From Zymoseptoria tritici IPO323 (taxonomy: Eukaryota > Ascomycota > Dothideomycetes > Mycosphaerellales > Mycosphaerellaceae), in the NCBI RefSeq assembly GCF_000219625.1, contig NC_018199.1, forward strand, positions 408,106 to 472,105: DNA of 64,000 nt. The letters run 5' to 3'. The stretch's first letter is position 1, and each line of letters starts with the position of its first letter. Below, piece after piece: positions 41,383-64,000 of the stretch. A program made the translations under genes and the position numbers. The notes under the pieces were generated by a model, which did not search any database, was not told the origin of the DNA, and worked only from the letters and a program-made list of their open reading frames with translations.

Positions 41383-44300
41383 TAGTATTACGGCCGGTCT
41401 CCGTACCTACCTTAGGGATGCCTAAGGCCGCAACTATTTCTATATATCTTCGAGTCCTTCTTAGACTCTCTTCTATAGTATTATATATAAACTTATCTAT
41501 TTACCGAGTTATTAGAATTACGTCTCTTCCTTCCGTTTAAGCCGTAATATATTTATATACCCCTAAGTATAATTTAACGACTATATAGTATAGGCTAGCT
41601 ATACCGATCTACTAACGCTATAGCTATAGGAGTAATATCGCGATACTACTAGGCGCCTTAACTTTAGCTATAAGCGCCTCTAGAACTAACTAACTAGTAC
41701 TTCCGAGTTAATCTTAGTACCTCTTAGGACGATACTATACCTTAAGTAATATTACCGATAGCGTACGTAGGCGCTCTAGAGAAAAGCGTACGTAGGCGCT
41801 CTAGATTAGTACTTACGTACTCTAGAATCGACCGTACCCGAGTACGCTAGATTAGTACTTAGGTACTCTAGAGATTCGATAAGTATACGGACATACTCTT
41901 AACCTAGAAAACCTATATCCTACGCTAACGCGTAAGATTAGTAAATTCGAATATTCCCCTTACCGCTAGTACTACTACGAGTATATACTTCGAATTCCTA
42001 TACGACCTTAGTGTTACGCTAGTACGCGCGCGCCTATCTTAGACGAGAAGGAAATTAAGGAAGAAATAAAGAATAAAGGATATATATATAGAATAGATAT
42101 CGGATAAAGTAAAGATAATAGCGACAAGTAGACTCCGTCCCTCGCGAGGCTTCTTATATATCTATACGACTCGCTACTCTATACCCTTACGTAAGAAAAT
42201 AGTATATATAGAGTCTACTCGCGTAACCGACTATAGACTTCTATCGACTTCTTATTTAAAGCTATTAACCTCGTCCGATCGTTTATACTATACTAATATC
42301 TAATAAATACCTACCCCTAGTATAACGTTTCCTCTATCCTCTTACGAATCGCCTTAAAAACTAATTAACTACTACTCTATTACCTCTATACGGGAACCGA
42401 GCTCCTAGATAGGCTAGTTACGACCCTCTCGCTTAGCGTCCTCGCTAATATAAACATCGAGCGTTTTAAGGCCTTCGTTAAAAAGAATCCTATAATCGCC
42501 TATTAGCTAGTTAGAACTATCTACTAATCCTTTAACGAGACCCTCTAGAACTAAGACGTCCTTTATAAGAGCTACGAGATATAGCGACTCCGGTTCGACG
42601 CCTACTACGTTAACTATTAGCTTACCCTAGAGAAAATTAAGGATCTTAGCCGAACCCTTTAGAACGATAATAAGAGTAAGCTTATTCTAAAATATAAGGA
42701 CTAAGCTAAGGCCTTTTATAAGACCGTTAAGGAGCTTAAAGAGAGCCTCGCTCGTACTAATTAGGATATCGATTCCTACGTTACCGCCGTAGAGTAGAGC
42801 TAAGCCTCCCTAGCTATAGCTAAGGGAGCTAGTACTACCTAGGATACGTTAAAGGCTCGTATTAAGTAGCTTAAAAAGGCTCTTAGAAAGCGAGTAGTTA
42901 CGTTCGAGCCTACCGAATACTAACGCTCCGTACGCTTAATCTCGCTTAAGCGATAAGTAAATACTACTATAGCTCTACCTCCGCGACTACTACCGGCTCC
43001 TTAGTTAAACTACTATTACTCTCGCTCTCGTAACCCTAGATTCCCGGACTATAGCGAGTCCGACTCTAAGGATAACTTTAGTAATTACCGCCGCGACTAC
43101 CGCCGTAATAACCGCCGCGATAACCGTCGCGATAAATACTAGCGCGACTATAACGAGGATAACGACCGTCGTAGCCGCTACCGCTCGTCCGAAGGTAGTA
43201 TACCGATATTAATGGTATTAAATATTACTACCTATAATCCTACTATATTAAGAGGTTATAAGATCGCTCGAGGAGTATAATACCCTAAGAAGTTTATAGG
43301 AGGAAAGACTAAGCCGAGATATAAATAATAGCTCCGATCTATAGATATACTCCTTAATACTACTAAATTTAGAAGTATCGAAGACTTACTCGGATTTATC
43401 TACTAGTATATAGGTAGTACCGTTTAGTAACTCCTTAAGTTACGTATACCTTCTAGGTTAGACTCCTACGCGGATACGCTAACCTCGCTATACTTTACTA
43501 CTATCGAATAGTTATTCGCCTAGATAAATATACGCTATATAGATCTAAATTACGCTAACTATACTAGATCCGAAATAGAGCGCCTTAAATAAAGTAACTC
43601 CGAGTCCTTTACGGACTTCTATAACTACTACCTCGAACTCCGTCCCTATATAGATTAGACCCTAATATCGGAGCTAGATACCTTAAAGAGAAAACTTAAC
43701 TTCCGCTTCCGATAGCGACTTATTAGACTAAGAATTAAAATAGCCGAAGAGCTTGTTAAGTAATATAACTAGGTCGATATCGACTTCGATAACCTTAAAG
43801 CGGATTACCCTTACGGCGCTAAGGCGGTATCTACTACTATAATCGACGTCGATAAGAGTAATAAAAAATAAGGTAGTAGTTTACGCTCTACTACCTTAAC
43901 GAATAATACTATCTCCTCCGCGACTAACCCGAGAAATTACGTACTTATAGATAAGTATCTTAACCTTCCTCGCCTAATAGACGTCGAGCGAAAGCGCTTT
44001 TAAGATAAAGACCGTTACTTCCGCTACCGGGAAATTGGTTACTATCTATAGTATAACCTCTACTCTATAAAGGGTTTTACCTCTAAGGGAGTCTAGGCGC
44101 TACGACCCGGCGCTACCGTAATTACCGCTAACTCTACTCGTATCGAGGAACTCTTAGATTCGTCTACTAAATTAGAAAAAGGAGTATCTACTACTTTAGC
44201 TAAGAAGTAGATAGACTCGAATCCGTTAGTATCTAATAACTATAACTATTAGCTTTATCCCTTTATATATCGCTATAGTACGAAGACGAGGACGAAGTCC

Positions 44301-44950: not shown

Positions 44951-47437
44951 TTCATTGTACTTGTTTATATAGGCTAGTCTACCTTTGCACCTAATCTGAA
45001 CTAAAGCCCTATCTAAGCCCTTACTACCGGCTCTTTTGGCCGTCTTCAGAGGGGAGGAAACAGACCTACGCTCCTACGTAAAGCGCCTCGCGATGCACGG
45101 CACCGCAGCTACTCCTAGCCTAACTACGTTTTATAGTGTCCTTTTAACTATCTCCTAAGTTAACCAAACCGCTAAAAAGAGAGACTACCGATAGGCTAGT
45201 CCGCATCCTAACGCAAAATATCGCTCCGGCAATCACTTACCGTCTATCGTACCTTAGGTTTCTAAACCTCCTAGGTAACGGACGAGGTGTGCGTCTCCTC
45301 ATCCGCCCGAAACTGTAACCCCGTCTCGTTAAGGGGGAATATCCCGCTTTAAGACCGTCCGGTAGAGCTCTGTCCTCCTTCCGTCCGGCGTATCTACTAT
45401 CGGAGATATTCGATTCCGATCGAGCCGCTTATATACTAGTCTATAAGTGCTTCCCGAACGGTTTAGGGAGTGCCGTCTTCCCTTCGGCTAGAATTCCTCC
45501 TCTAGCGATCGTCGTCGTCTACTCCTCTCCCCTACTACGCTGTCGCCTTCGCATTCCTCTAAGCCTCCTACTACTCTATAGAGGTACTAGTTTTCTTCCT
45601 CCCGCTCCCCGGCTTTAAGAGGAAGCAGCCGTAGATCTAGGGTATACACCTTATATCTACTACTAGGCCTTCCGGATAGAGTTAATCGTCCGGTACGGAG
45701 CTAGTCCGGGCCTCGCTAGTCGCCTACGTCTCCTATATCGCAGCGCAGCCTTTTAACGTCCTACTAATCGGACGCCTACTTTCATCTCGAGGGAAGAGAC
45801 TCCTTTTCGATAGGGTAAACGCCTAATTTATCCTCGAGGGATAATCTCCGCTTTTACGTCCTAGGTCGACGGAGCTACTTTACGTCCTACCTATCGGACG
45901 GAGCCTTTTTACGTCCTACCTATTGGACCGAGCTACTTTACGTCCTACCCATCGGACGGAGCTACTTTACGTCCTACCTATCGGATAGAGCTACTTTACG
46001 TCCTACCTATCGGACGGAGCTACTTTACGTCCTACTTATCGGACCGAGCCTTTTAATGTCCTACCTATCGGACGGAGCTACTTTACGTCCTACTTATCGG
46101 ACCGAGCCTTTTAACGTCCTACTTAGGACAGTGTATACTAGGTCTGTGCCGCTGCTTCCTCCGCTTCCTCCTTCGTAGCTTCCTCCTTCGTAATCTTCGT
46201 CGAGATTCGCTCGAGGATCTCGTTAGCTTGCTCCTAGCATCCTGTATTTAGAAGGAAGTCTACCTCGGTAAACTTCGTGTTCGTAGTGCCTATTTTCTTA
46301 TATATCTTCTGCTTCGCCCGTCGTTCCTTCCTCGAGAGCTAGCTCGTCCTGTTTTCCCGGTAGTAAGTCTCGTATCCTCGGATAAATTTACTTATATAGA
46401 CGCAGAAACTATAGGCATAGAAGGTTCTACGCCGATACTAGAGGAAGCGCTTCTAGAAGGACCGCGGCGCCTTTAAAAAGTAATCGGCTCCTCGTAAGTC
46501 CTACTTTAGGCGGCTTTCTTCCGGTATAATCCGGGTTAGGCTCTACTTCTTAGCCTCTTCGGCTATATCTTCCTCTCTCTCCTAGCGTAGGAACCGCTAG
46601 ACAGAACGGCGGTCTTTGCTAAGGCTTCGGTCGCGAGGCTAGGACTCGGGTGTCTTATAGTACTTCTTGTAGAGCTTGTCCTCCGTTAAGCGCTAGAAGA
46701 ACGCTTTAGGTTTCTAGATTAGTAATCCTAACTTCTGTAGCGGACTTTCTTCCGGAGCGTGCTTCTTTACAACCTAAAAGCTAGTTTTTAGTGCCTTAAA
46801 TCGCGAGGGTAGGGCGGAGATTCCTAGGAGATTGTAAGTAAAGTAAGGGTTAGAAGCATAACCCGAGATCTACTTCGTTAGCTTTGTAACGTCCTTAGTC
46901 GTCTCGTCCTAGAACTTAGGAGAGTCCTCGGCAAACGCCGCGAGGAGAGGCGCGCTATACTCGAACATCGGTGCGAGATACTACTAATAGACTCGTAGGC
47001 GATATGCGAAGCCCTAACTGTCTACGTCGAGGGTTAGGAAGTCGCTTCGTTTCCCGGCCTATTCGAGCCGGCTCTTAAGGTGCCTCCTTAAGTTAATCCC
47101 TCGCGCCGTTATAGGAAATCCGAGGTAGGTATATACCTCTCTCCTTAGTACCTCTACACTAAAGAGGTAGATTGCCTCCTACGAAGACGCCGGCGCTAGA
47201 TAGGCGCATTTTTTAATGTTTAGGGCGATGCAGTTAGCGGAGGACTAGCGCTCGAGGATCTAGATTAGTACACGCACCTTGTCTAAGTTAGTAGCAAGGA
47301 GAATACTATTATTAGCGAAGAACAGCGCGTAAGGAATCGGCGGCGCCGTAGGCATTACGTCGGAAGAGCCGGCTAGGGCGAGTATCCTAGGTTAATTTAA
47401 GTCCTCGAGCAAGCTATCGATGAAGATGTTAAACAGA
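44951..47437 (-). mobile_element. LINE copy A, 5'-truncated, strongly RIP-mutated
   Basis: Homologous to the 3' 2.3 kb of LINE copy B (47,482-49,828). It begins with the same TTCATTGTACTTG terminus after TTAGGGG. It is truncated within the reverse-transcriptase region, where 'aacagatag' runs straight into TTAGGG-type repeats. Against copy B most differences are CA to TA or TG to TA. The RT catalytic pair read as FADD in copy B (49,693-49,704) is FANN here (47,308-47,319). Copy A is longer than the matching part of B because a 29-bp repeat in the 3' region has more copies. Confidence 0.88.
45869..46128. repeat. 29-bp minisatellite in LINE copy A, about nine copies
   Basis: Units of 'ggagctactttacgtcctacctatcggac' repeat every 29 bp. 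The corresponding site in copy B (48,400-48,511) has about four. Confidence 0.9.
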
Positions 47438-47481: not shown

Positions 47482-48399
47482 TTCATTGTACTTGTTTATA
47501 TAGGCTAGTCTACCTTTGCACCTGATCTGAACTGAAGCCCCATCCAAGCCCTTGCTCCCGGCTCTTTTGGCCGTCTTCAGAGGGGAGGAAACAGACCCAC
47601 GCTCCCACGTAAAGCGCCTCGCGATGCACGGCACCGCAGCTACTCCCAGCCCAACTACGTTTTACGGTGTCCTTTTCACCATCTCCCGAGTTGACCAAAC
47701 CGCCAAAAAGAGAGACCACCAATAGGCTAATCCGCATCCTAACGCACAATATCGCTCCGGTAATCGCTCACTGTCTATCGTACCTTAGGTTTCCAAACCT
47801 CCCAGGTGACGGACGAGGTGTGCGTCTCCTCATCCGCCCGAAACTGTAACCCCGTCTCGTTAAGGGGGAACATCCCGCTTTAAGACCGTTCGGTAGAGCT
47901 CTGTCCTCCCTCTGTCCGGCGTATCTACTGTTAGAGACATTCGATTCCGATCGAGCTGCTTACACACCAGTCCACAAGTGCTTCCCGAACGGTTTGGGGA
48001 GAGCCGTCTTCCCTTCGGCCAGAATTCCTCCTCTAGCGATCGTCGTCGTCCACTCCTCTCCCCCACTACGCCGTCGCCTTCGTATTCCTCCCAGCCTCCC
48101 ACTGCTCTGCAGAGGTAACAGTTTTCTTCCTCCCGCTCCCCGGCTTTAAGAGGAAGCAGCCGCAGATCTAGGGTACACGCCTCACATCCACTGCTGGGCC
48201 TTCCGGATAGAGTTGATCGTCCGGTGCGGAGCCAGTCCGGGCCTCGCCAGTCGCCTACGTCTCCTACATCGCAGCGCAGCCTTTTAACGTCCTACCGATC
48301 GGACGCCCACTTTCATCTCGAGGGAAGAGACTCCTTTTCGATAGGGTAAACGCCCAATTTATCCTCGAGGGATGATCTCCGCTTTTGCGTCCCGGGTCG

Positions 48400-57407: not shown

Positions 57408-57597
57408 CCGGCAAGTCGGGGCAGCAAGACGAATCCGACGCTCGTCGCATACTTCGAAAACCTCACTTCTGAACCTTGTAACGGTTTCTTTCGCAACAAA
57501 GACAGGCTCCGAGACCGGGCAATTACGAGAAGAACTGTCCATTCAAAATCTTCCATGTCGTATCTATAAGAGCTTGTTTTACCCTACTTATAGCGTA

Positions 57598-57750
57598 GCT
57601 CGGGTCGACGAAGTCGACCCGAGCGGAGCTATAAGGCGACTTTTCGCGAAGCGACGCGACTTCTCGCGAAGCGACTATTCGTTCGAGAGGTCGTAAGCCC
57701 TTCGAGAAGGCTTAGGGGATCTTTCTATAAGCCCTTAAGGCTTATAGATA
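57598..57750. repeat. Cluster of palindromes next to the subtelomeric satellite
   Basis: GCTCGGGTCGAC-gaa-GTCGACCCGAGC (57,598-57,624) is a perfect 12-bp inverted repeat with a 3-nt loop. 'gcgactt.tcgcgaagcgac' is repeated directly at about 57,636 and 57,656. AAGCCCTTCGAGAAGGCTT (57,695-57,713) and CTATAAGCCCTTAAGGCTTATAG (57,726-57,748, shown here in part: arms CTATAAGCC and GGCTTATAG) are further palindromes. No coding sequence. Confidence 0.8.
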
Positions 57751-57779
57751 AAAATACCCTATTTTAGTACTAGAAAATA

Positions 57780-59400
57780 AGGGTTCCGAGGTTTTATTAG
57801 AGGCTCTTAAGTTTCTAGGTATATAGAGTAGGTTTTATAAGATATAAGAGGCTCTAAAGAGTAAGAGAAAACTACTAGCTAGTCGTAGAAAACTCTAGTA
57901 CTCGCTAGAAAACCTAAAGTACTAGTATATATAGAGACTTAAGGTTTTAATATTCTTCCTAGAGTTTTAAGGGCTTAGGGTATAGTTTTCCTAGATTCTT
58001 AAATAGATAAAGAAGCTTAGAAAACCTCTAACTAGTCTATATAAACTCTACTAAAGTTTATAAAACCCTAAGTTTTAGTCCTAAGAAATTTCTTAGTAAA
58101 GACGGACTTAGAGTTTTATATTAATCTAGGAGGTTTCTATAGACTAGTGTATAGTTTTAGTAGATTCTTACGTAAATAAGAAAGCTTAGAAAACTATTAG
58201 CTAGTCCTAGAAAACTCTATAAAAGAATAGAAAACTTAATATCCGAAATAAAATATAAACGACGGGCCTAGAGTTTTACTTTAAGCCCTAGGGTTTCTAT
58301 AGACTAAATAATAGTTTTAGGGTATTCTATACTAACCTAGAAAGCCTAGAAAACTATAAGTTAGTCCTAGAAAACTCTAGGAAAGAATAGAAAACTAAAG
58401 GTATATCTAGTACTAAGAAATCTAGACTCGAAGTTTTAGTAAAAGCTCTAGAGTTTCTAAAGACTAGCTAGTAGTTTTCTTCTACTCTTTAATAGATTAG
58501 GAAGCTTAGAAAACTACTACTTAGTCTTAGAAAACCCGAGGAAGAAATAGAAAACCTAAGGTAGATATAGTACTAGGAAATCTAGACGCGAAGTTTTAGT
58601 TAGGCTTAGGAAGTTTTAATAGACTAACTAATAGTTTTCTTATATCCTTTTATATATTAAGAACCTTAGAAAACTATTACTTAAGCTTAAAAAACTCTAT
58701 AGATAAATAGAAAACCTAGGTTCTACTTAGTACTAAGAAAGTCGGACTCGAGGTTTTAATAGAAGCCCTAGAGTTTCTATAGCTTATATAATAGTTTTCC
58801 TACTATTTAGGCTAAATAAGAAAGCCTATAAAACTATTACCTAGTTCTTAGAAACTCTATAAAGAAATAGAAAACCTAAAGTCTCTTAAAGTCTAAAAAA
58901 ATTATTACTATAGCTAAACTCTAAGTTTTCTAAGAAGCCCTAGAGTTTCTATAGACTAAGTAATAGTTTTCCTATTATTCTAGCCGACTAATAAAGCCTA
59001 GAAAACTATTAAATAGTTCCTAAAAACTCTATAAAGAAATTAAAAACTAAGATAGACCTAGTACTAAGAAAGTCGGACCTTAGGTTTTTATTAGATCTCT
59101 AGAGTTTCTATTATCTAAGTAGTAGTTTTCCTATCTTTATTACTACTCTAGAAAGGCTAGAAAACTATTAGCTAGTACTAGAAAACTATAAGGAAGAATA
59201 GAAAACCTAAGATAGACCTAGTATTAAAAGTATTAGACTTAGGGTTTTTATAAGAGCCTAGAAGTTTTAATAGACTAAGTTATAGTTTTCTTATACTCTT
59301 ACCTAACTAAGAAAGCCTAGAAAACTATAGCTTAGTCCTAGAAAACTCTTAGAAAGAATATAAAACTATATTAAAAATAGTACTTTAAGAAAAGCTATAG
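57780..59400. repeat. 160-bp subtelomeric satellite, about ten diverged copies
   Basis: The block 'gaaaactatta.ctagt' recurs near 57,869, 58,022, 58,189, 58,349, 58,509, 58,669, 58,829, 59,001, 59,160 and 59,320, mostly 159-160 bp apart. Each unit also holds 'gaaagtcggactcgaggtttta', 'ccctagagtttctatagact' and 'atagttttcctat' (shortened). CA and TG are nearly absent throughout, so the array has been saturated by RIP-type change while unit spacing is kept. Confidence 0.92.
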
Positions 59401-59510
59401 TAGAGAAATAGAATAAAATCCTATAAGATAGCTATATAAAGTAGTCTAGATACCGTTCCCTAAACGCCTAACCTTCTATACTTAATCCCTTATATTAGAA
59501 TTTAAAAGCT

Positions 59511-62500
59511 TTATCCCTTTTTAGGCCGTCCGCCTTTTTTACCGCTCTTAATCTTCTTCGGTCTACCTCCTTTCTTTTTAACTATCTCTTTAGCCTCTTC
59601 TATATTCTCTTCTACGTCTAGATTATTATTAGAAGATTTCGATTTACTACTATTAGAACTATTTCTATTACTAAAAGACCGCTTAGTAGAAAGCTTCGGT
59701 ACTAGGGGTTTAGAGCTACTAGGTACTACTAGATTCGATCTTAACTCTAGAGTCTTTATAGGATTCTTAGGGTTCTTTACTCGAGAAGAATTCTTAGATT
59801 TAATAGAATTATTAGAGGTAGGGCTAGAATTACTAGACGGCCGTAAAGACTTAGTATTACTCTTTTCTTTAGAGTTAGATATAGGTTCTATAAGATTCTC
59901 TCTTTCCGGATCGATAGTCGTTATATAATCCTCGATAATAGTCTCTTTAGAAGGGCTAAAGACTTTATTATTAAGTAGACGAAGAGCTTTAGGAGTAAGT
60001 CGATTCTTTCTAGTATTTTCTTCCGTTAAAAGGGTTTTAGGACTATTAAACGTATTCTTAAAGGTAAAAGATATATTAGAATCCGAGCTAGGGTTGCTTA
60101 GATTATCTTTAGAGGACTCGAGTACCTTAGGAATAGTAAGCGTTTTATTATCCGAATTATTACTTAGGTTAAGACTACTAGAGTCGATAGAAGATATCGA
60201 AGAAGAGGTAGTACTATCCTCTTTATTACTAGTCGTCTTATAGCTTTTTACTCGAGAGATATACTCTACTTTATCTTTTAAGATCTCTCTTATCGATTTA
60301 TCCTCTAGTAAATTAAAGTAGTTAAAGTATAGCTTAGAGAAAGCTAGGCTTCGGTTCGTAGTATCTCTAGTCTTATTACTAAAGTAGTTTGTTTCTCTAG
60401 CGTAGTTTAGATTCGCTACTTTAGTAGAATGTCCCGCTAGTATATCCTCGATATTAGATTGTTCTCGATTACTTAATTTTATAGCCGTTTTGTTCGATCG
60501 AGGGCTTAATAGCTCCGGCCTCTCTACTAGTATACGCTCTTTAATTATATAGGTTATTAAATGTCTATACTCTTTAATACCAATTCCTTTATTAAAGTAC
60601 TTTTTAGTTATATCCTTTAGAGCTTTACTTAGAGTAAGGCTCGTAATATTCTTATTATAAAGCTTAAAGAAAAGCTTTGTTTCTAGGGTTGTAACGTCTA
60701 GATAGTTAATCCGTAGATACTCTATTAGCGGAATAATAAAAGTAATATAGTAGACTATTATCCTCGTTATGCGTATAGGTAGAAACCGAATAGTATTAGT
60801 ATTTAGGGTAGTAGAGTCCCGGTTCTTATCGAGGTTACTCGTATCTAAAGCTATTAAATTATTACTCTTATCGAGGAAGATATCTCGTAGGGATCCTAGA
60901 CTAGTATTTCGAAACTTAAGTAGAATAACCGCTTTCCCTCTTAAGGGACTACTCGATAGTAAGTAGATATTTAGCGCTAAAGATACTAAGAAGTTATAGA
61001 TCTTTTTAAAGTAGCTTAGAATACCGTCTTTAATATTCGCCTTACTACCTAGAGTAGGATCTAGTAAGAGGTCTTTATTTATAAACTTCTTAATAAGAAT
61101 ATCCTTATATTTTACTAGGTACTTAGAGCTCGTTAGATCCTCTAAAGGCGTATTATTATCTTTTCGATCGAGAACTTTACTTAGATCTAGGTCTATTATA
61201 TTTTCCTCCTCCTTATTAAATAGTATAATATCCTTAAAGAATAGATCCTCTAGATCTTCTAAGGATTTTATAAATAAGGTCCGTAGCGTATTTATATTAA
61301 TTTTAATATTATCTATAGCTAAAGTATCCGGATCTATATCGTCTATAGGCTTATAGCTACTAATCTTATTATAATTATAATACTTTAGCTTAATCCGAAG
61401 GCTATAGTACTCCGTAAAGTAGTTACTAGCATTTATAGTTAATCTAGACTCGATAAACTTTAAGGCGTTATCTACTTTAGTAGTAGTAGTACTTAGAAGT
61501 ACTAAATACTTTAAAGTAAATAGGCGGCTAGAGTAGATTAACTTAGATAATAGAGATTGTACCGAAGTCGTCTTTCTAAATATAATAGTATTCTTATCTT
61601 CTAGAGCTAGGATCTTAGCCGGATCTAAGCTCGCTATAATCAAATAGGTTATTAAAGGATTATTAAAACTACTATTCTCGTAGAATACTATATCTATCCC
61701 TAGAGTAATAAGATAATCTAGAGTCTCTAATAAAACTCTCTTTAGATCTTCTTTAGCTCTATTACTATCCTCTATTAAATACGTACTAATAGTAGATACT
61801 TTAAATAAAAGACTACTAAGAGAAGACTCTATAGTAGGCTTAGAGTAGTAGGCTTCCGGCTCTCGATATATAGTATAGAGATAGACGAAGAAGGTAGCGA
61901 TAGGCTTAAGGTAAGACTTTCTCGTAGCTATATCGAGCTCTTTAAAGGCTTTTACTTCTAGATTATTATTTCCCGGGTTATAGTTATTAAGAGCCTTTCT
62001 AGTATTTATAGAGAGATCTTCGATAGAACTAAAGGTTTCTAAGCCTAGATTTATAGTTGTATAATAGATAAAGGCTAGTAGCCTATTCTTAAGAAAGATA
62101 TTAGGATCTATCGTATTTAGAAGTAGTTCTAGGTCCTTATCCTCTAGATATCGGAAGTAGTAGGTACTTCTATTAAAAAACTCCTCCTCTCTATTTATAT
62201 TAGATTCCTTAGGCGCGTTAGAAAGCGTATCCTTCTTTATACTACTAAAGACGTCTTTATACGTATCTAGATTTAGATCCGTATTAGATATACTATTAGT
62301 ATAGGTATTACTATTCTCTTTAATAAACTTAGGTATAAACCTATACTTTAGATTATCCTTAAATCCTTTAATAGATATAATAGGAACCTCTCTTAGAACG
62401 TTAGGGTTAAGAGTAGTCGTACTTTTATAGTTATGTTTTTTATTTAAATGTCTTCGTACTTCTTTAGCGCTCGGATTAAGATAGAGACAAAATCGGCATT

Positions 62501-63000
62501 TATACCCGTCTAGATTTAGCTCTAAGTTAGGATAGTAGTAGGTATTATAGCTTATATTACTAAGTAACTCCTTAGAATTCTTTTCCTCTTTAATAAGTAT
62601 ATCTTTACCCTCTATAAAGCTCTTAATTAAATCTAGAATAGAGGTAGAGTTATAGTATTCTCTAGTCTCCTTATTATTCTTATTCGAATGTCCCTATTAT
62701 ATATAGTTAGTAGGGTTTCTAATATACTCTCTAGACTATACTTACCTTTAAATGTTTTACTATATTATTAATATCCTTAGTAAGAGTAGTAGAACATTCC
62801 GAGCAAATTAATAGCTTTAGATCCGGATTATAGTCTAGCGGTAACCCTTCTAAGGACTCTATACTACTAGGAGTAATAGCTTTAAAGGTCTCCTTAGTAT
62901 AAGGCCTATTATCCTCTAGTAGTTTATTAAATTCTTCTATAGTAAGAGGTCTAATTCTATCTATATTCTTATAATAAATACTACTAGTAGTAGAAGACAT
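59511..63000 (-). CDS. Telomere-proximal zinc-finger / tyrosine-recombinase-like protein with C-terminal AT-hooks
   Basis: Exon 1 is 63,000-62,746. A 52-bp intron (62,745-62,694; GTAAGT donor, AATAG acceptor) follows. Exon 2 is 62,693-59,511, about 1,145 residues with no internal stop. Zinc finger 1 is LICSEC...KHLK joined across the splice to GHS, so splicing creates its last His (C-x2-C-x13-H-x3-H). Finger 2 is YKCRFC...RRHLNKKH (62,511-62,434). Further on are IRITRIIVYYITFIIPLIEYL (20 quoted residues or fewer in two parts: IRITRIIVYY, ITFIIPLIEYL), KEYRHLITYI and LAGHSTKVANLNYARE, which match the recombinase-like region of fungal telomere-linked helicases and OrsD-type proteins. No helicase domain follows; the C-terminus is Ser/Asn/Lys-rich and ends in two GGRPKK AT-hook motifs. 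It is the last gene before the telomere. A DNA-binding role at chromosome ends is inferred. Met, Trp and Gln are nearly absent. Confidence 0.75.
62694..62745 (-). other. Intron of the telomere-proximal gene
   Basis: Donor GTAAGTATAG, acceptor TATAATAG, 52 bp. Without splicing exon 1 stops four codons further on (VSIV-stop). With splicing the frame joins in phase zero and completes zinc finger 1 (HLK|GH). Confidence 0.75.
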
Positions 63001-63867
63001 CTAGTAGTAGTAAAGAGTATAAGAGGTAGTAGTAGCAAAGAGTATAAAAGGTAGTAGTAGAGTAGATAATATAAGAGAGTTAAGAAAAGGAAGAGAAGAG
63101 TAAGAAGAAAACTAAAGGTTTATATAGTCTACTCTATTTCTAGATATATAGTATAGCGGTTTTAAAGTATAAGATATAGCGGTTTCTAAGTATATATTAT
63201 AGCGGTTCTAGGGTATAGAGTATAGAATATAGAGTATAGCGGTTTAGAGTATACTAGTATCTAGATATATACTATAGCGGCTTAGAACTATATACTATAG
63301 AGGTCTCTAAATATATAGTATATAGTATAGGCGCCTAGAAGTATAGAGTATTATATATTATATATAATAGATATATAATATAAAAGCCGAGAACCTAATA
63401 GATTAATACTTTAAGTATAGCTTATATATATAGTATACTTTAGCTAGTAGTTCTAGAGTATAGATAAAATATAGGGTATATACTATCTCTTATTCTACTT
63501 AGACTACTTAGAGCTACGATATAGAGATAAATTAATTAACTAAGGTAAATATAAAGCGTAATCTATATAATAAGAATATTAGTAAATAGAATAAAGATAT
63601 AGAAGTAGATAGGGTAGAACCCGAATCCGCGTAGCGCTAACCCGGTTAATAGGTTTAATTAAGTCGCCATAAAGCGTAACCCGTTAAATAGGTAAAAGCG
63701 TTAGGGTTAATAGGTTTAATAAAATCGACGCGAAGCGTAACCCGTTAAATAGGTAAAAGTATAGGTTAGGGTTAAGACATATAAGTAGGGGAGGTCGAGT
63801 AGAGACGGTAGTAGAGTTTAGATAAGGTTAAAGTTGTAGGGTTAGGCGCGCGCGTAAGCGCGCGGCG

Positions 63868-63868
<1 letters not shown>
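63001..63868. repeat. Subterminal AT-rich repeats and GC hairpin, no gene
   Basis: From 63,130 to 63,420 short words (tatagcggtt, agtatatagtat) recur irregularly. From 63,640 to 63,780 a ~62-bp unit containing 'ggttaataggtttaat' and 'gcgtaacccgttaaatagg' is present about twice. At 63,846-63,866 GCGCGCGCGTAAGCGCGC forms a GC-rich hairpin. This region separates the last gene (ATG at 63,000) from the telomere and must contain its promoter; no specific promoter element can be assigned. Confidence 0.7.

Positions 63869-63916
<48 letters not shown>
63869..63916 (+). repeat. Variant telomere repeat TGAGGG, eight units
   Basis: Eight perfect TGAGGG units stand immediately proximal to the canonical repeats. 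Confidence 0.97.
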
Positions 63917-63917
<1 letters not shown>

Positions 63918-64000
63918 TAGGGTTAGGGTTAGGGTTAGGGTTAGGGTTAGGGTTAGGGTTAGGGTTAGGGTTAGGGTTAGGGTTAGGGTTAGGGTTAGGG
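63917..64000 (+). repeat. Telomere, TTAGGG, 14 units to the window end
   Basis: Fourteen perfect TTAGGG units on the plus strand reading outward, so this is the right-hand chromosome terminus. The window ends inside the tract. Confidence 0.98.

Follow-up and report, generated by a model that had tools for sequence, protein, structure and literature searches.

The right end of chromosome 20 (C20; 472,105 bp) of the fungus Zymoseptoria tritici IPO323 carries, within the 64,000-nucleotide window analysed here, a two-exon gene that, as judged from comparison of its copies, is under purifying selection, and that lies in a repeated unit with two conserved ends. We consider it fairly probable that this gene forms the coding part of a telomere-terminal recombinase element that has become proof against repeat-induced point mutation (RIP). 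In a fungus with active RIP, multi-copy DNA is expected to be destroyed, and in IPO323 the additional subtelomeric copies of dim2 are described as non-functional, with not all of their changes being due to RIP (PMC8016269); the present unit is, instead, poor in CA and TG. An earlier interpretation made from the letters of the window alone (the sequence-only reading) had proposed a RIP-hardened subtelomeric gene kept by selection; the results below support its core and extend it by a repeated unit with precise ends. The genome searched comprised 39.69 Mb in 21 contigs, the ends of which are denoted by contig number and side (C20R and so on).

The gene is composed of the following parts:
62746..63000, minus strand: exon 1, from ATG, with the start of the OrsD domain and zinc ligands C66, C69 and H83; its splice site is the same in 7 of 7 full-length copies
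62694..62745, minus strand: intron of 52 bp (GTAAGT ... CTAAC ... TAG), of the same length and with the same ends in all seven
59511..62693, minus strand: exon 2, 1,060 amino acids, TAA stop

Spliced, these give an open reading frame (ORF) of 1,145 amino acids with a coding sequence (CDS) of 3,438 nt, exactly the frame and intron described in the sequence-only reading. The remaining five frames contain 44 to 214 stops. Under a first-order Markov null model of the CDS, 118.8 ± 9.9 stops were obtained (minimum 88 in 500 runs), with a longest open run of 106 codons, so that the expectation that a random frame would be full of stops is borne out: about 119 in the model, none internally in the gene. 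The splice junction, which the sequence-only reading took to rebuild a zinc ligand, falls between two ligand histidines, H83 in exon 1 and H87 in exon 2. No second ORF of at least 150 codons accompanies the recombinase gene within the unit.

In the DNA of the gene (59511-63000), CA occurs at 0.05, TG at 0.07 and TA at 1.53 times the expectation; this signature of RIP-affected sequence, CA/TG depletion plus TA excess, is present on both strands, and from it we infer RIP as the cause. The whole CDS contains 23 CA/TG, the 1.5 kb past its 3' end one, and the last 370 nt of the unit, hairpin included, none in the three copies checked (C3L, C20R, C2R). Synonymous codons have been purged accordingly: those with CA or TG encode 1 of 146 Leu, 4 of 91 Thr, and none of the 31 Val, 28 Ala, 43 Pro or 131 Ser residues, and only 5 of 1,144 codon borders form such a dinucleotide. 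The five residues whose every codon has CA or TG make up 13 of 1,145 positions (M1, W0, Q2, H6, C4), which agrees with the near-lack of Gln, Met and Trp noted before. They comprise the initiator Met, the eight zinc ligands, the two histidines of the recombinase boxes and two Gln; at one of the latter positions, 7 of the 15 relatives aligned there also have Q. The further claim that the residual CA/TG largely encode Cys and His holds in part: all ten Cys/His do stand at motif positions (eight zinc ligands, His796, His840), but the statement is partly circular, since Cys and His codons always contain TG or CA, and whereas 10 of the 23 dinucleotides lie in Cys/His codons (13 with M and Q included), another 10 are unforced (4 ACA, 1 TTG, 5 spanning codon borders).

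The related protein P0006, 39% identical over 85%, has 110 M/W/Q/H/C among 1,088 residues versus 13 of 1,145 here, and its aligned positions of this kind are kept in the window protein in 8 of 98 cases, as compared to 336 of 872 for the remaining positions. Low GC alone is no explanation, because the GC-rich relative P0008 is equally depleted (M1, W0, Q2, H5, C5 of 1,283), with 8 of its 10 aligned Cys/His agreeing with the window protein; this suggests CA/TG purging at a different base composition. Elsewhere in the window, at 42001-44000, 2 CA and 3 TG are found in 2 kb, and the longest open run in any frame is 68 codons.

Genome-wide protein and pattern searches, from which all our counts of copies and ends derive, revealed seven full-length copies at or near chromosome ends (C20R, C20L, C4L, C3L, C12L, C17L, C17R), six of them telomere-adjacent, with CDS lengths of 3,438 and 3,471 nt among the copies. 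Neither these nor the shorter copies at C5L, C13R and C12 (internal) contain internal stops; further family loci lie at C6R, C13L and C8R, all copies together being spread over nine contigs, and diverged relatives have 8 stops at C16 and 3 at C11. The ratio of replacement to synonymous divergence (dN/dS, NG86) is 0.11-0.62 in the 44 of 45 pairs that differ, one pair being identical. Since mutation is context-bound in this DNA, we added a test in which every difference was moved at random among sites of identical neighbouring bases: in 8 of 8 pairs, which are not independent replicates because the copies are partly homogenised, replacement plus stop changes fell below all 2,000 reshuffles, with an observed/expected N/S of 0.22-0.61, the few "stop" counts in distant pairs being an artefact of scoring single changes in multiply changed codons. 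In four pairs, dN/dS is 0.00-0.08 in the zinc-finger part, 0.07-0.17 in the middle, 0.13-0.24 in the recombinase part and 0.14-0.63 at the C-terminus. The 5' parts of the gene are common to several ends in a mosaic pattern. Purifying selection on a multi-copy subtelomeric gene, as proposed earlier, is thereby supported; stop-bearing copies free of dN/dS constraint, which would have contradicted it, were sought, and ten copies proved open. Two truncated copies, near 6188 of L016 (C5L) and near 4980 of L013 (C12), are fused directly to short runs of CCCTAA and to a subtelomeric element; they look like fossil telomere healing inside the gene, as expected after loss of a chromosome tip.

The encoded protein combines an OrsD domain with what appears to be a tyrosine recombinase:
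62433..62498, minus strand: second C2H2 finger of OrsD (C151, C154, H167, H172; Pfam PF12013)
60402..62075, minus strand: putative tyrosine recombinase region (core-binding and catalytic, exon-2 residues 207-764), from AF2 models and VIA-align
60939..60941, minus strand: box I Arg670 (SSPLRG; R585 of exon 2), invariant in the alignment
60825..60827, minus strand: Lys708 (K623 of exon 2), invariant in the alignment, candidate catalytic Lys
60564..60566, minus strand: box II Arg795 (YRH; R710 of exon 2), invariant in the alignment
60429..60431, minus strand: box III His840 (GHS), H in 8 of 16 and R in 8 of 16 relatives
60402..60404, minus strand: candidate nucleophile Tyr849 (Y764 of exon 2), in at least 90% of rows
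59517..59570, minus strand: two AT-hooks (GGRPKK twice)

The OrsD domain (residues 55-173) matches Pfam PF12013 with an E-value of 4.1e-9 and 37.3 bits versus a cut-off of 26.6. Conservation of its zinc ligands is imperfect: 6 of 11 aligned relatives have His at the position of H172, and no His aligns with H87, the counterpart of which in relatives seemingly lies one residue further on. Tyrosine recombinases share the catalytic order R - K - (H/K)xxR - H/W - Y, with the tyrosine about nine residues after H/W. The window protein displays this order: in alignments of 17-18 rows, R, K and R are invariant and Y is present in at least 90%, with nine residues between His840 and Tyr849. AF2 models show the core-binding plus catalytic fold, the best VIA-align rows being XerH, XerA and Cre; VIA-align did better than Foldseek, which returned no significant match for either model. 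As no recombinase Pfam family matches the window protein at E <= 1, the assignment rests on conserved residues and fold; a family-profile search of solved structures yielded 4 hits with E <= 1, most of them zinc fingers, the best at E 0.055. The relative P0009, whose match ends short of box III, was omitted from the model alignments, the tree and the codon and residue comparison. Thus, the guess of a recombinase from the RH and GHS motifs gains from the invariant catalytic residues and the Cre/Xer-like model, the two claimed AT-hooks are in place (cores at residues 1127 and 1139), and the protein is, on sequence and model evidence, a likely DNA-recombining tyrosine recombinase.

The gene lies in a unit of about 6.4 kb (window 57584-64000), which is organised as follows:
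57584..57586, minus strand: final unit bases TAG at the junction; the flank begins at 57583
57587..57635, minus strand: inner terminal hairpin, 49 nt, with an 8-bp outer stem, a 3x3 internal loop, a 12-bp inner stem and a TTC loop as read from the telomere side
58133..59367, no strand assigned: tandem repeats of ~160 bp, 7.7 copies, separating the gene from the inner end
63847..63865, no strand assigned: outer GC palindrome CGCGCGCGTAAGCGCGCGG, at 11 genomic places
63867..64000, plus strand: TGAGGG variant repeats, then TTAGGG telomere

When copies are compared in telomere orientation, homology ends at one exact point in 8 of 8, with unrelated DNA beyond. This inner end is an imperfect inverted repeat (folding z = -5.2 for 57580-57680), and the unit ends in AAGTAG. 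Across the 39.7 Mb, the hairpin core was located 18 times, 17 times exactly and once, at C5L, with one mismatch; none of these places is further than 23 kb from a contig end, and they are spread over 17 of 42 ends. All 18 inner ends read GCTATAAGTAG, the first flank base being G in 15 and T in 3. The loop, from the telomere side, is TTC in 17 of 18; the GAA of C4L (L003) is flanked by perfect arms and looks like an inversion of the loop. Paralogous uninterrupted sequence, taken to represent the empty site, was obtained for 11 junctions: comparison of the 18 junction flanks with comparison loci yielded 8, and a genome-wide search with 6 of the other 10 flanks, those of C6L, C18L, C18R (inner) and C5L being outside it, yielded 3 more. 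Right before the joint, 10 of the 11 have AG (9e-12 under a chance of 1/16) and C2R has CG. At C18R, the tail of one unit is attached within the 3' coding end of a different copy. The combination of one fixed end, many targets and a short shared sequence is the trace expected of a site-specific enzyme; ectopic copying between subtelomeres or microhomology repair would be expected to leave ragged ends instead. The outer end consists of variant CCCTCA repeats and the palindrome CCGCGCGCTTACGCGCGCG and is carried, in 11 places, by every full-length copy, by the two ends with helicase genes (C13L, C8R), by C18L and by the C13R tip.

At C18L (L039), the two unit ends lie at full distance from each other, and a run of N takes the place of the gene region; it is probably the 4.5-kb "unclonable" gap published for chromosome 18 (PMC4522978). 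A gene-less form of 359 nt, which begins on the left with GGCTATTTACG and finishes in the hairpin, occurs at C6L (L024), C7R (L025), C16L (L027) and C13L (L026). The left side of the C13L copy is non-telomeric. To see whether this copy is a clean two-sided insertion, both its flanks were compared to homologous DNA: the right one matches at 74% and the left one not at all past ~12 nt. Within the window, 44968-45297 and 47499-47828, 16-19 kb from the telomere, are 91-97% alike to the DNA that adjoins the inner end of the C20L and C7R units, and likewise to the DNA distal to the C4L, C5L and C12-internal copies; they probably belong to the published telomeric retroelement family (PMC4522978).

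The following scenario can be envisaged. The recombinase would recognise the inner hairpin, be it as a duplex inverted repeat, a cruciform or a folded strand, and join this end to a site that reads AG. As the opposite end is the telomere, a single joining would make a new tip for the recipient chromosome, the distal DNA being discarded. Repeated RIP on the multi-copy element would have stripped nearly all non-essential CA/TG; with almost none left, RIP has little to act on, so that the surviving lineage could persist in several intact copies while other repeats decay. More tentatively, with a probability that we put well below even, the unit may represent a new class of mobile DNA, a recombinase element with a functional telomere as its outer and a foldable hairpin as its inner end, which captures tips by one-ended site-specific joining and is immune to RIP. 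The joining might then proceed, by analogy, through recombination at a folded site, as in integron attC sites, or through resolution of a hairpin, as in protelomerases. Such an immune element would write its protein with essentially 15 amino acids. The gene offers a natural example in which a genome defence seems to have led a repeat to rid its DNA and its protein alike of the dinucleotide that RIP attacks; and a true one-ended telomere element would provide a new route by which chromosome tips turn over in fungi whose accessory chromosomes are unstable.

Could the protein instead be a domesticated host factor for end protection, in the manner of Drosophila WOC, that binds chromosome ends through its zinc fingers, recombinase-derived domain and AT-hooks, the gene spreading only by recombination or copying between subtelomeres? 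The telomere-adjacent position of six of the seven full-length copies, the purifying selection and the mosaic 5' parts would all fit, and WOC co-localises with telomeres, its mutants showing telomeric fusions (PMC3212892). Copying, however, would not yield a single precise inner boundary on 18 different flanks, nor AG at 10 of 11 inferred empty sites, and the invariant R, K and R are unneeded for pure DNA binding, so that we regard this explanation as rather unlikely. It appears quite improbable that the unit is a passenger moved by a Helitron-like Rep or by microhomology end-joining, the recombinase gene being incidental. A hairpin near a fixed 3' end does mark Helitrons, which are listed for this species (PMC4522978), and the gene-less form occurs at four ends; but an inner end fixed in 18 of 18 places is not what end-joining would produce, the unit's protein has no Rep or Pif1-type domain, and gene-less forms are expected anyway as non-autonomous or eroded copies.

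An accidental ORF, that is, recent copies of a dead gene which RIP has yet to strike, is very improbable: the copies do resemble each other, but CA/TG are already nearly gone from gene and flanks, some 119 stops would be expected, replacements between copies are depleted, and the diverged C16 and C11 relatives do carry stops. The published reading of the gene as a RecQ helicase of subtelomeres (PMC4522978), possibly in truncated form, is scarcely credible. Its N-terminal two thirds are indeed homologous to real OrsD-recombinase-RecQ proteins, yet no helicase domain (DEAD/Helicase_C) is found in the window protein at E <= 1 or in copies L011, L017 and L013 at E <= 0.01, and the helicase and non-helicase groups separate with 100/100 support, which indicates an old separate clade rather than a recent truncation.

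The element reading, which we prefer, has to be set against what is already in print. Dhillon et al. (2014) described a Z. tritici subtelomeric "RecQ helicase" family with 7 full-length copies and 6 truncated ones, distributed over nine chromosomes, and a CDS of 3,480 bp with 34.7% GC (PMC4522978). Its loci are very probably those of the present gene: the copy counts match (7 full-length plus six others on nine contigs). The CDS lengths differ, being 3,438 and 3,471 nt here. The gene itself has been published (PMC4522978), though its name does not fit. In the accessible portions of that paper we found no mention of OrsD, a recombinase, AT-hooks, CA/TG purging or unit ends, and titles, abstract openings and text portions of the open-licence literature yielded no description of a recombinase domain, RIP-proofing or unit ends for this family. 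Real helicase domains occur in the proteins of C13L and C8R, which are encoded by OrsD-recombinase-RecQ genes (L019:904-5991 and L020:3805-8736). These genes are M/W/Q/H/C-poor too, though more mildly (Q11-12, H10, C18, W3); that of C13L is open from its ATG and that of C8R is broken near the N-terminus.

Among known systems, Cryptons resemble the unit as DNA elements with a tyrosine recombinase and a short sequence common to element end and target (PMC3212892). They differ in having terminal repeats of 4-6 bp, matching and direct at both termini (PMC3212892), whereas the present unit has a terminal hairpin that shares only AG with its targets at one end and a telomere at the other; the C-terminal GCR1_C domain of CryptonF finds no Pfam match in the window protein at E <= 1. 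In CryptonF the tyrosine recombinase is the sole enzyme of transposition, a role that the recombinase region of the present unit may also have. TATE elements of kinetoplastids are likewise tyrosine-recombinase elements at telomeres, but possess reverse transcriptase/RNase H and sit inside telomeric hexamers (PMC6681497). The present unit joins subtelomeric AG sites, and its protein has neither a reverse transcriptase/RNase H nor a Helitron Rep/helicase domain. WOC is a host gene with zinc fingers of another type and an AT-hook, and, unlike the present gene, it is not part of a repeated unit. The likeness of WOC/ZMYM lies in a recombinase-derived domain within a telomere-associated protein (PMC3212892).

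The fungal telomere-linked helicases (TLHs), of which Ustilago UTASb has an OrsD domain (PMC10532341), share with the present gene the OrsD-type N-terminus, a recombinase-like region and a position at chromosome ends; the helicase genes of Z. tritici itself, at C13L and C8R, share the outer palindrome and variant repeats with the unit. In contrast to TLHs, the present gene has no RecQ domain, possesses C-terminal AT-hooks and lies in the opposite orientation relative to the telomere. The element reading offers a directly testable answer to the question of why telomere-linked "helicase" genes occupy fungal chromosome ends and how they arrive there. If the unit does represent a new class, the recombinase clade beside the TLHs would imply that these in general descend from, or are, such elements.
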